A DNA stretch of 38,085 bases. Origin: an uncultured Chitinophagaceae bacterium (GTDB lineage: Bacteria > Bacteroidota > Bacteroidia > Chitinophagales > Chitinophagaceae). The notes beneath the pieces were generated by a model. It ran no database searches. It was not told where the DNA came from and worked only from the letters and a program-made list of their open reading frames with translations. The position numbers were made by a program, and so were the translations under genes. Location: NCBI GenBank assembly GCA_903895845.1, contig CAITVK010000107.1, positions 1 to 38,085 on the forward strand. The letters are read 5' to 3'. Below are positions 9,099 to 13,085 of this stretch, piece after piece (the first letter of the stretch is position 1; each line of letters opens with the position of its first letter).

Positions 9099-10271
9099 CT
9101 AAATGTTCCTCCATTCTTTCAACATACAATTGGCTGTATGATCTAGTCCCCAATCTTTAATAATTTTTCTACTTTCATTTCCCATCTCCAATAAAGCATC
9201 TTTATCAGGAATTTTTTTTATTATCTCCACTAGATTTTTGTGATTATTGCTTTCAAATATCCACCCATTTACATTATCAATCACCAAATCCTTTCCACAT
9301 CCAACTTTATTACTAACAATTATGACTTTACCGCTTGCCATCGCTTCATTTACAGCCAAGCCCCATGTTTCTCCTGGGCCCTTAGATGGCAAACAAAATA
9401 CATCTGCAAATTGATACCATATTGGCATCATTGATTGATTTTGAAACCCAACAAAATGGATGAACTCACTCTTACCTGAATTTCTTGCTGTTTCCTTCAA
9501 TCTTTGCTCTTCCTCTCCGTTCCCCACAAAAACTAGATGTATTTTCTCAGTAACTGCATCTACAAAAGCATTTAAAAGTAATAGCGGATTCTTTTTACTT
9601 TCAAACTTTCCTGCGAATAGTATGATTCTATCCAAATTAGAAAGAGAAAGGGATTTTATGAGTTCATCTACTTTATCACTAAAATCAATTGCATATCGGG
9701 TATTGTCAATAGAATGTGGTGAAAAAACTAACTGAGATTCCTTCAATAAAGCCCATTTAAAATAAGCTTTTGATTCCTTTCCAACATAAAAAGCTTTATC
9801 AACATGACTATACACCCAAATTAAAAAGATTCGCCTTAAAAAGTTTTTGGCTTTTCCTGCAAAACCACTCGCATAATTATCCAGTAAGGTAGAATCTCCC
9901 CTGAAGTAAAGAGGAATTTTTCCTTTAAAATACCTCAACACTTTCAAATGACTACGATATCCCCAACCAATAACCAAAATGGCAGCCGGGTTATAATCTA
10001 GTAGTTCTTTTATTATTGTAGGATTCCTGATGCCTTTAAAGTGATGACTACCTGGTACTGTTGAAGTATTTTCTAAATATTGATAGTCATATCCTTCTAA
10101 TAATGGAACATCCCACTGGACTTTTTTACCAAACCCTGGATCGTACTTTTCCACCGAATCTTTGCCCCAGGTATAAAATACTTTCAGCTCAATCCCTTGG
10201 GCAAGGAGCTTAAACAGGGGCGCATAATACTGAATGGGATGCGAAGTAACTATTGCTACCCTCTTGACCAT
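9099..10271 (-). CDS. Family 4 glycosyltransferase
   Basis: This 390-residue GT-B enzyme begins VAIVTSHPIQYYAPLF, an N-terminal signature seen in GT4 enzymes of exopolysaccharide clusters. The donor-binding domain shows FAGKFESKKNP at 219-229, FVGNGEEE near 248-255, and GETWGLAVNEAMASG at 300-314, including the usual E-x7-E-like motif. It transfers a sugar to the lipid-linked intermediate at the cytoplasmic membrane face; the sugar is not predictable. The ATG overlaps the previous stop by one base (TAATG), and the Wzy gene begins one base after its own stop. Confidence 0.87.
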   Translation of the reverse strand: MVKRVAIVTSHPIQYYAPLFKLLAQGIELKVFYTWGKDSVEKYDPGFGKKVQWDVPLLEGYDYQYLENTSTVPGSHHFKGIRNPTIIKELLDYNPAAILVIGWGYRSHLKVLRYFKGKIPLYFRGDSTLLDNYASGFAGKAKNFLRRIFLIWVYSHVDKAFYVGKESKAYFKWALLKESQLVFSPHSIDNTRYAIDFSDKVDELIKSLSLSNLDRIILFAGKFESKKNPLLLLNAFVDAVTEKIHLVFVGNGEEEQRLKETARNSGKSEFIHFVGFQNQSMMPIWYQFADVFCLPSKGPGETWGLAVNEAMASGKVIIVSNKVGCGKDLVIDNVNGWIFESNNHKNLVEIIKKIPDKDALLEMGNESRKIIKDWGLDHTANCMLKEWRNI

Positions 10272-11545
10272 TAATTTACAACCATATTAAATAATTCAAC
10301 TTGTCTCTTTGTCATTTCCTTGGCACTATACTTTTCAAATATGCTCCAGTCGGTATCAATACTAAAGGTATTTGCTTGAATTGATTTCAATAGGTTATCC
10401 AGCGTTTTATAAACAGCCTGAGTGCTATCCTCAAGCGTACAAACCTTTCCCGCACCTGTTTCCTCCAGAATATTTTTTGCGCTACTAGAGGGATGAAAAA
10501 CACCCATCAGCGGCTTCTTTGCCAATATATAAGGATAGAGTTTAGAAGCAGTATAGGCAGGATCGTCAGAACCCGGAATAAACAACAAGTCGGCTTTTAA
10601 CAACAGTGATAATCCTTCAAAATAGGGTACCCTATCCGTGTATTCTGTTACATAGCTTCCAATTCCTTCTTTTTCAGCAACAGGGACTATAGTTTTATTC
10701 CCTTGTCCTTTTGGCGCATAGCTGGTACCAATAAATACAAATCGAAACTGATTGTACAATTCTGGCTGTTCTTTAAGTCCTGTTTTAAAAGCAGAAAAAA
10801 CTAAAGAAAGGGCTGGTTGCATATCAAATCCACCTCGGCCTACATAAACTATATTTTTATGAGTCCTATCGTTTATAGTAATGGCAGACCTTATCTCTTT
10901 TGCAATCTCCAAATCGTTCGTAAATGCCCCAAATGTGATTACGCTGGTTGGCTTATCCATCAAATTTACATATCGATTTCTAAGTTCTGTTATGTACGCT
11001 TCTGAAACACTTATCAACCCATCACAACCCCTCATTGCAACTGGCTCAAGGTATTTATTAAGGTTGTAGGAAAACCAATACTTAGGTGGTCTTTCATTTT
11101 TTGGTTTGTCCTGATAATAAGTTGAATGCCAAGGATCTTGCATATCTATTAAATACGGAATTTTGAAACGCCACTTCCAATATCTACCCAATATCAACAC
11201 GGGAAACTGTGTAGTAGAAAAGTAAATCAACTGAAAAGAATCTCTTTTTAAAAGCGCATTTACCTTTTTAAAATAAAAGTATAAAGATCGCAATGCCAAA
11301 GCACCTAAGCCTACTTTTCTTGTCCACTTGCTAGAAAGCGCCCTGACCTTAATTACCTCTAATCCGTTGGGCAAAGAATTCAACAACAATGGTTCTTCTA
11401 CGCCTTCTACATACTTTTCATCCACCGAAACTACTGTTGGTTTCCAACCAAAGTCTTCAAAATACCATACGCTTTGTCTTACCCGGTGCATGTCGGCTGC
11501 ATTAATGGGCGGGAAGTGGGGTGATATGATGAGCAATTTCTTCAA
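10271..11545 (-). CDS. GT4-like glycosyltransferase
   Basis: The 424-residue protein begins KKLLIISPHFPPINAADMHR, a GT4 N-terminal motif for nucleotide-sugar GTs of the WcaI/Fut kind. It has a central IVYVGRGGFDMQPAL strand near 233, and a donor-site region FIPGSDDPAYTASKLYPYI near 325. The donor site uses DDPAYTASK instead of the common EGFGLxxxEA, like other members of this divergent branch. The start is TTG at 11545: no ATG exists between it and an in-frame TAG further upstream, and the next internal Met (residue 19) would remove the first beta strand. It is the first gene of block II, directly below the long array-B gap. Confidence 0.78.
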   Translation of the reverse strand: MKKLLIISPHFPPINAADMHRVRQSVWYFEDFGWKPTVVSVDEKYVEGVEEPLLLNSLPNGLEVIKVRALSSKWTRKVGLGALALRSLYFYFKKVNALLKRDSFQLIYFSTTQFPVLILGRYWKWRFKIPYLIDMQDPWHSTYYQDKPKNERPPKYWFSYNLNKYLEPVAMRGCDGLISVSEAYITELRNRYVNLMDKPTSVITFGAFTNDLEIAKEIRSAITINDRTHKNIVYVGRGGFDMQPALSLVFSAFKTGLKEQPELYNQFRFVFIGTSYAPKGQGNKTIVPVAEKEGIGSYVTEYTDRVPYFEGLSLLLKADLLFIPGSDDPAYTASKLYPYILAKKPLMGVFHPSSSAKNILEETGAGKVCTLEDSTQAVYKTLDNLLKSIQANTFSIDTDWSIFEKYSAKEMTKRQVELFNMVVN

Positions 11546-11990
11546 TATTGATCTTAAAAATGGATTCCGCTTCTTATTTTGCTTCTGTTTTTCGTAGCAC
11601 TATTTATTTTATTCTCTTCTCACAATTGCAAATACGTGCTTAACCAGATTTTGTTTGTGATTAAATACAAAGATTAACCTGATAGTTTTTTTAAAATGTA
11701 CTACTTGGAAATTATTGCCTGCTACTCTAGAATTATTGAATCTTACAATCGCTTTATTGCATCTTACATTGACATTATTGCGTCTGACAATAGCATTATT
11801 GCATCTTGCAGTAACATTATCGGGTCTGACAATGGAATTATTGCACCTAACAATGGAATTATTGAATCTTGCATTGTCCTTTCGCCATCTCGCAGTAGAA
11901 AAACCCTCTTTGACATAAAAAAAACGTTATGAATACTGAAAATGGTTGATAAACCACCTTTCATTTGGCACATTTTTGAAATGCAGCAGC
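11546..11990. other. Untranslated gap between blocks II and III
   Basis: This is the longest gap in the window (445 bp). It contains array B (11711-11878). Three short frames stay open through the array (two plus, one minus), but only because its period is divisible by three; none starts or ends like a real gene, so I call no CDS. A 5-bp hairpin, TGGTT-TATC-AACCA on the minus strand (11943-11956), followed by TTTTC, lies 35 nt after the stop of the acyltransferase at 11991 and could be a weak terminator. No recognisable promoter was seen before the TTG at 11545. Confidence 0.7.
11711..11878. repeat. Tandem array of eight units with exact 21-bp period (array B)
   Basis: Units begin at 11711, 11732, 11753, 11774, 11795, 11816, 11837 and 11858, every one 21 bp after the last; a decayed ninth follows at 11879. 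The consensus starts ATTATTGCATCT and ends TACAATGGA. The ATTATTG core is kept in six of eight units, with TTTATTG and ATTATCG in the other two. ATTG at unit positions 4-7 and CAAT at 15-18 are complementary, so half-sites alternate every 11 and 10 bp. Translated on the plus strand it would read as heptapeptides (IIASYNR, IIASDNS, IIGSDNG), but the neighbouring frame is open too, which argues that the frames are a by-product of the period. Confidence 0.92.
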
Positions 11991-13085
11991 CTAATTTCTT
12001 CTAACAATAAACTTTTTTTCAGTATAAAAATGACTTAGATAAGCCACCAAAACACTTGCGAACACGCCTAAGAATGCCAAGTAAAAACTATGTGGCAATT
12101 GATTGTAATATCTCAGATAGATGCTTGTCAAAAAGGCCTGAATTGGAAAATGTATGATATAAAGGGTGTAAGAAAATCCGCTAAAAAATCGGAAACGTCC
12201 AATTAGGCTATTTATTGCATTCTTAATAAGAGACTTATTGTCTGATAATAAGAATATAAATACAGGCAATAGACCTATACCAAAACCAAAATCGCTGATA
12301 TAATCATTGTATTTTCCTTGCAGGATTAAGCTAATGGGCAACAAAATGAGCAGGATATTGAGTAATTTAAAGAACTTAATCCTCTCTGACAATACATCAG
12401 CAATGTAAGCACCAATACACCAGGTAGGCAAATACAAAAAGGTTTCTATCCAGAAATATTGCCGGTTAAAATTTAGATAATATAAAATGAGCGAAGCTGC
12501 TAGAACCAGGATATAGCCCAAATAAATCTTTTTTCTATTTATCAGTAATAATAGAGGATATACCATATAAATCCACCATTCTACCCTTAAAGACCACAAC
12601 GGAAAATTATTTCCTGCAACATAGAAAAAGGGAGTAGTAATGAAAGTGAGGTTTGCGACTATTGTTTTAACAGAAAGATTGTCAGGGTAAGGCAGTCGAA
12701 AAAAGAACATTGATGTTAATGCCAAAATGACCATCAACAGCATACAAAAAATCAGAGGCGGAAAGATTCTTCTGACCCTGTTTTTTATATACCCCGCCAA
12801 GTTAAACTTAAAATTGTCGGAACCCTGTATTGAGTGTGCTTGTTTGTAATGAATAACCAAGCCAGATAATACAAAAAATAAGGTAACAGCTTCTGAACCG
12901 TACTTGAAAATGGAAAAGAAATACAAACATGCCTTGTCGAAATGATTATACAAATCTGGATGCTTTAAGTATCCTGTGTAATAACTTTCCCAACATACAA
13001 GTCTGGCATGGTGAAATACTACATATAACGCAGCTAATCCTCTTAACCCATCTAATATCTCAAATCTTTCTTTGTGCGTTTTCAA
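11991..13085 (-). CDS. Acyltransferase-3 family membrane O-acyltransferase
   Basis: This 364-residue multi-pass protein has the acyltransferase-3 (OafA/NodX-like) signature: EILDGLRGLAALYVVFHHAR at 9-28 with the key His pair at 25-26, GSEAVTLFFVLSGLVIHY near 63-80, and the basic RVRRIFPPL. About ten membrane helices follow. The family transfers acetyl or other short acyl groups to sugars, usually across the inner membrane. The start is TTG at 13085, whose bases form a 4-nt TTGA overlap with the upstream TGA stop, as ATGA overlaps do elsewhere in the locus. It is the last gene of block III before the array-B gap. Confidence 0.88.
   Translation of the reverse strand: MKTHKERFEILDGLRGLAALYVVFHHARLVCWESYYTGYLKHPDLYNHFDKACLYFFSIFKYGSEAVTLFFVLSGLVIHYKQAHSIQGSDNFKFNLAGYIKNRVRRIFPPLIFCMLLMVILALTSMFFFRLPYPDNLSVKTIVANLTFITTPFFYVAGNNFPLWSLRVEWWIYMVYPLLLLINRKKIYLGYILVLAASLILYYLNFNRQYFWIETFLYLPTWCIGAYIADVLSERIKFFKLLNILLILLPISLILQGKYNDYISDFGFGIGLLPVFIFLLSDNKSLIKNAINSLIGRFRFFSGFSYTLYIIHFPIQAFLTSIYLRYYNQLPHSFYLAFLGVFASVLVAYLSHFYTEKKFIVRRN

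Follow-up and report, generated by a model that had tools for sequence, protein, structure and literature searches.

Period-21 intergenic repeat arrays in a Chitinophagaceae genus: candidate helically phased docking sites

Repetitive extragenic palindromes and bacterial interspersed mosaic elements (REP/BIME) are short dispersed intergenic elements, hundreds per genome, that consist of imperfect palindromes and are mobilized by RAYT transposases. Plasmid iterons are direct repeats of about 19 to 22 bp, helically phased and bound by protein, and non-autonomous elements resembling miniature inverted-repeat transposable elements (MITE-like elements) are small, non-coding, and dispersed, with conserved ends. 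Direct repeats of the TAACTGA heptamer are reported to occur in Beggiatoaceae, cyanobacteria, and some Bacteroidetes (PMC4679880), and intergenic tandem repeats have been noted in genomes of lake bacterioplankton (PMC9426551). The present work concerns a tandem array of 21-bp units in contig CAITVK010000107.1 (assembly GCA_903895845.1, an uncultured Chitinophagaceae bacterium, hereafter G000), all 38,085 bp of which are referred to below as the window. Its whole-turn spacing, kept through heavy substitution, without coding capacity, a fold, or a common sequence, and combined with a preferred orientation towards genes, is best read as a helically phased protein-docking array; the binding protein is putative, and the probability of this reading is put at just under one half. 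A literature search, thin in subscription journals, found no description of such a class of 21-bp arrays.

The window array and its dispersed family

An earlier note on this DNA had reported eight units at an exact 21-bp period. The register is real, and the array is in fact longer: a chained scan, which allowed one weak unit in register to be skipped, extends it to 10 units, still at exactly 21 bp (11711-11920). Identity at lag 21 is 0.69 over 11711-11878, compared with 0.16-0.25 at lags 19, 20, 22, 23, 10, and 11. When 147-bp spans were compared at lags 10 to 63, the array's lags 21, 42, and 63 were the top three in the window (0.70, 0.69, and 0.66), the next best value being 0.50. Tandem Repeats Finder assigns period 21 to 11732-11870 with 0% indels and a score of 131, and period 42 scores 150. 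A clustered regularly interspaced short palindromic repeats (CRISPR)-type array was rejected, as it would be expected to have conserved repeats with unique spacers, whereas here the full 21-bp unit repeats and the units abut without spacers.

The array is part of a dispersed non-coding element of roughly 210-230 bp; of the first 12 elements outlined by hand, 11 measure 209-231 bp and one 147 bp. BLAST and sequence profile searches identified 14 arrays of this family in G000. The family scan was run on 33 sources, and L117, L126, L133, and L136, with fewer than four good units each, were left out of the 30 arrays analyzed. With the chain permitting deviations of ±2 bp, 249 of the 253 unit spacings are 21 bp and the other 4, found in four arrays, are 20 bp. 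Identity between units of the same array ranges from 0.52 to 0.83 and is mostly about 0.6, and TCT occupies unit positions 10-12 in 234 of the 283 units, so that fixed whole-turn spacing is combined with a conserved core, as in a phased array. The suggestion of the earlier note that spacing is under selection and plays a DNA-level role gains support from this constancy at many unrelated intergenic loci. Less was left of the alternating complementary half-sites that it had described. In the window array, 7 of 8 units do carry ATTG at positions 4-7, yet just 4 of the 8 have CAAT at positions 15-18; across the family units ATTG is found in 109, CAAT in 52, and both in 23, far fewer than contain TCT, and a dyad signal was detected in only 1 of the 30 arrays. 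The copies form two types with conserved ends (15 arrays of type I and 9 of type II), plus six arrays of neither type (L116, L120, L121, L124, L125, and L132). At two places (L115:21-309 and L116:5081-5301) the family array is immediately followed by a further 21-bp array built of a different unit (e.g., ATTACACGTCTTAAATCTTGT).

The family profile matches 8 of the 13 genomes of the genus at E ≤ 0.01, G000 included (7 of the 12 others). A family-wide profile search gave matches at E ≤ 0.001 in 8 of 244 genomes, three of them from the genus of the window; the matches in the other five genomes are weak and comprise six loci, three of which (in G019, G211, and G230) are period-21 arrays with other unit sequences and one of which (in G211) has period 42. 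L150 (G019), L153, and L148 (both G211) stand as isolated arrays in g8, a different genus of the family, the first two with ~ten 21-bp units each and L148 a short 42-bp array. An exact pattern scan of one genome per species (84,980 species) returned 11 loci, nine in Chitinophagaceae records and two, from a Clostridium and an alphaproteobacterium, without a 21-bp array. The single array pattern tried on viral contigs gave no exact match.

Period-21 arrays of unrelated sequence

The wider sample comprised 400 kb of G000 and 382 kb of G006, a second species of the genus (782 kb altogether, from contigs picked as long and known). Period 21 and its multiples dominate this sample: lag 21 accounts for 28 segments in G000 and 26 in G006, whereas lag 20 yields 1 and 0, lag 22 yields 2 and 1, and lag 14 yields 4 in each. 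After lags 21, 42, and 63 were merged, 62 period-21 arrays remained, ~1 per 13 kb, which extrapolates to a sampling estimate of ~320-360 per genome. These arrays group into ~41 sequence families; a single period common to dozens of unrelated families had not been foreseen by the earlier note. With genes called as simple open reading frames (ORFs), 55 of the 62 lie between ORFs, 6 at the ends of stretches could not be scored, and 1 is within a 134-aa ORF; several further arrays overlap small ORFs, and a few weak or heptamer-like ones (e.g., L172:2950) were kept unpruned. The number of units has a median of 9, a mode of 10, and a 10-90% range of 6-11. Four more species of the genus carry such arrays, namely G007, G011, G010 (lag 42 only), and G012, in which several lag-21 matches are heptamer multiples. 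Near-homogeneous arrays that look young are present in G011 (four, with lag identities of 0.87-0.99) and in G007 (one, at 0.92). In 360 kb from five other genera there were 0 arrays at lags 11-63, compared with 28.6 expected at this density.

Some individual arrays deserve description. A 647-aa gene is preceded in two species by 21-bp arrays of very different unit sequence (L162:14691 and L177:7585). The 21-bp arrays L167:1-233 and L173:9964-10145 either have their two ends in inverted-repeat relation or form a single long palindrome. L132:1551-1936 and L187:2985-3414 carry an intergenic 42/85-bp array whose unit is common to both G006 places and is not made up of a 21-bp sequence unit.

As 21 bp equal seven codons, the arrays could be heptapeptide-repeat coding sequences or pseudogenes thereof, which the earlier note had named as the main alternative. 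Open frames are indeed somewhat more frequent than in permuted arrays (1.23 vs 0.81 in the family and 1.55 vs 1.11 in the sample), and the window array is open in three frames between stops. However, an open frame is entirely missing from 8 of the 30 family arrays and from 19 of the 62 sampled ones, and conservation has no 3-bp periodicity in family or class arrays (z of 0.07 ± 0.13 and −0.16 ± 0.13, respectively). Pairwise divergence by position class is 0.23, 0.34, and 0.28, with the core/spacer split dominating, and the 20-bp units of four arrays would break the frame. Coding in any of the six frames was therefore rejected; for the family as a whole this explanation is refuted and has next to no probability left.

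An RNA-level role, in which the arrays would be transcribed as rows of hairpins or as a small RNA, appears very improbable. The sampled arrays do fold better than their column-permuted versions (mean z of −2.78, with 83 of 124 strands below −1.65, the folded segments including some flank), and 25 of the 62 have dyad symmetry. The window family, though, shows no such folding (mean z of 0.04, with 5 of 60 strands below −1.65) and is, as noted above, almost devoid of dyads; the window has no Rfam match at the gathering threshold; and hairpins do not need exact 21-bp spacing. Among 39 arrays between co-directional genes, folding shows no sense/antisense bias (P = 0.92), and partly palindromic arrays without strand bias favor a DNA-level reading.

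Intrinsic curvature would account for the importance of the period and the unimportance of the sequence: repeats in phase sum their bends, and the arrays could be selected as curved, supercoil- or nucleoid-organizing DNA without a specific protein. Predicted curvature (computed with wedge parameters) is 6.05 degrees per turn in the sampled arrays, compared with 2.70 after shuffling and 2.87 and 2.52 at 20 or 22 bp; the family values are 5.97, 3.04 shuffled, and 2.87 and 2.69 respaced. Any 21-bp period, however, roughly doubles predicted curvature, and the units are hardly tuned for it when compared with column-permuted units (z of 0.48 ± 0.15 for the 62 arrays and 0.19 ± 0.17 for the family). 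The window array, at 4.26, is even below the mean of its own permuted versions (4.97), the arrays have no A/T phasing, and the TCT core is not predicted by curvature. The tuned curved-DNA element that the earlier note had considered is thus not borne out, and selection for curvature is an unlikely explanation.

Gene orientation, retention, and origin of the arrays

The start side of the element is turned towards the 5' end of the neighboring gene in 26 of 28 scorable family arrays (P = 3e-5 against an expected 0.565, and P = 0.004 if the expectation is 0.7), and the end side is mixed. With the orthologous pairs (window/L129 and L107/L135) counted once, the ratio is 24 of 26 (P = 8e-5). Scoring was impossible for L106:4458 and L121, and two of the 28 cases depend on ORFs shorter than 80 aa, reading away from the array at L128 and towards it at L007. 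Pfam was searched with 25 start-side neighbors, those known beforehand to point away from the array (the exceptions L007 and L109 were left out), and 21 of them gave a match at E ≤ 0.01. The start-side genes are diverse, including secA (in two species), mutS, and genes for SAICAR synthetase, GAPDH, acetyl-CoA synthetase, glycosidases, and glycosyltransferases, among others; family arrays lie 123-513 bp from the start codon.

In a docking array, the exact two-turn spacing would place a ~12-bp core (ATTATYGNATCT) on one helix face about ten times. Since the element is upstream of a gene, with its start towards the gene's 5' end, a bound protein filament or cluster could influence transcription or the local architecture of the DNA. 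What we infer here is protein binding (mainly recognition of phase, or many cognate partners), a promoter between the array and the gene, and an effect on expression. The periodicity of conservation is consistent with such docking: conservation power in the class has a z of 1.10 ± 0.22 at 21 bp and 0.38 ± 0.15 at 10.5 bp, and in the window family the only clear signal is at 10.5 bp (0.54 ± 0.15).

The element is retained better than its surroundings. The window copy and its G006 orthologue are 74% identical over 223 aligned columns, with the only gaps at columns 1 and 221 of 225 and the array itself ungapped, whereas the same comparison gives 56% and 46% identity for the flanks and 51% for third codon positions in the gene next to the element. 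Copies from the same and from different genomes are equally alike (0.760 vs 0.772 for type II and 0.634 vs 0.633 for type I), so within-genome gene conversion is not the cause of their similarity.

The arrays could also be a selfish or by-product satellite: an enzyme of the genus would measure 21 bp and amplify any short sequence, and the resulting elements would then be copied in a MITE-like manner, with no host function. This possibility, which we consider real but doubtful, explains the unrelated unit sequences of the ~41 families better than docking does, and it agrees with the young-looking arrays of G011 and G007, with the presence or absence of arrays between species, and with the finding that near relatives in different genomes may adjoin different genes (L111/L131, similarity 0.81, and L113/L123, 0.82). 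In the four genomes searched, a 299-aa protein with a CarboxypepD_reg-like tail gave 15 matches; the array check covers the six close homologues (the other 9 being distant), and all six are on the end side of family arrays, as though co-copied. The copy in G006:C35 has an internal stop. A satellite explains less well the orientation bias and the persistence of register and core at a site with strongly diverged flanks and third codon positions, and the narrow range of unit numbers and the conserved part of the unit that tracks the helix also speak against it. Y1 transposases (PF01797) are few and not enriched, with 2 matches in G000, 5 in G006, 4 in G011, and 3 in G012, compared with 4, 2, 0, and 0 in G019, G016, G030, and G034 from other genera. 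L155/L181, the only near-empty site inspected closely, had no readable target-site duplication, being too diverged to show one.

Several results weigh against a phased docking array. No motif is clearly common to the ~41 families (information of 4.61 vs 4.09-4.35 in permuted sets, a marginal difference), and therefore one sequence-specific protein cannot serve all of them. Taken as a class, the 62 arrays occupy divergent or convergent sites no more often than background predicts. Some non-orthologous copies resemble the window copy more closely (0.77) than its own orthologue does (0.73), so that the family consensus and register are retained to a greater degree than the sequence of the single copy. 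The G006 place matching L155:1099 and the G000 place matching L191:8397 both lack a detected array, and some arrays are therefore dispensable. Promoter-like TANNTTTG separates the array from the gene in 7 of the 25 cases, with 3 on the other strand, a weak result given that shuffling yields a mean of 3.45 and that 28 of 500 shuffles reach 7. In the window family, moreover, the 21-bp conservation harmonic is not raised (0.17 ± 0.17), and there are weak signals at 7.0 bp (0.40 ± 0.17) and 4.2 bp (0.44 ± 0.24).

The window array is located inside a minus-strand polysaccharide-synthesis cluster, between genes for a glycosyltransferase, labeled GT4-like from a Pfam match under the curated cut-off, and an acyltransferase (Table 1).

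Table 1. Locations of the window array, the features around it, and the close copies of the 299-aa protein
Feature	Location	Strand	Remark
21-bp array, 10 units, exact register, non-coding	11711..11920	+	Family consensus ATTATYGNRTCTNNNANTNNN
Whole element, type II: start motif TGTACTACTTGGAA, array, end motif CCCTCTTTGACATAAA	11697..11919	+	As aligned to the G006 orthologous site
Spacer, element start to glycosyltransferase ATG	11492..11696	-	Without TANNTTTG match
Glycosyltransferase, GT4-like, 5' end towards array start	10271..11545	-	TTG start 11545 or ATG start 11491
Acyltransferase (Acyl_transf_3), 3' end towards array end	11991..13085	-	
299-aa protein, close copies	L009:1656-2555; L014:1744-2643; G003:C95; G004:C64; G006:C47; G006:C35		

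Upstream of secA, a Smr-domain gene, and the GAPDH gene (L107, L108, L134, and L135) there are 7-bp direct repeats of the TAACTCA or TAACAAC kind. At three of these four loci the repeats are near TANNTTTG; they recall the TAACTGA repeats (PMC4679880).

Implications and comparison with known repeats

Sequence is what usually defines a bacterial intergenic repeat. In the present arrays the constant feature appears to be a period of two B-DNA turns, shared by dozens of unrelated sequences, which suggests that spacing rather than sequence matters and leaves helical phase alone, as a selected or measured chromosomal trait, open to direct test. We tentatively propose a class defined by length alone: a sequence of any kind, repeated in tandem ~ten times at exactly two helical turns, at ~300 extrapolated sites per genome, with the period either written by an enzyme measuring 21 bp or read by a protein that senses helical phase instead of base sequence. 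If true, either would represent a sequence-independent, period-locked system of genome organization without a known counterpart. A protein that reads the period would represent a novel kind of organizer, of the nucleoid or upstream of genes; an enzyme that writes it would possess a new length-measuring amplification activity.

The closest described systems each share some of these features. REP/BIME are similarly short, dispersed, intergenic, and present in hundreds per genome, and partial palindromes are frequent among the arrays of the class; unlike REP/BIME, the arrays have a fixed direct period of 21 bp, and the window family is non-palindromic. Plasmid iterons are alike in repeat length and helical phasing, whereas here there are many dispersed copies of unrelated sequence; membership among iterons was rejected for the window array, which has a glycosyltransferase and an acyltransferase gene as its neighbors and no replication gene. 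MITE-like elements are likewise small, non-coding, and dispersed, with conserved ends, but the body here is a 21-bp array, and no terminal inverted repeat was recognized by eye in the family.

The repeats noted in lake bacterioplankton (PMC9426551) are also tandem intergenic arrays; the arrays described here differ in their single dominant period, narrow unit number, and sequence that varies independently from family to family. TAACTGA repeats and the cyanobacterial short tandemly repeated repetitive (STRR) sequences are, like the present arrays, intergenic direct repeats that are patchily distributed among lineages, form many sets in certain genomes, and often lie upstream of genes. Assignment of the window array to these heptamer repeats was rejected, its best lags being 21, 42, and 63, with 14, 28, and 35 outside the top eight. 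As reported for the best-studied genome (PMC4679880), TAACTGA repeats have a 7-bp unit of one sequence, mostly in 2-6 copies just upstream of the start codon, whereas the arrays described here consist of ~10 units of 21 bp, with dozens of unrelated unit sequences, and are located 123-513 bp from the start codon.
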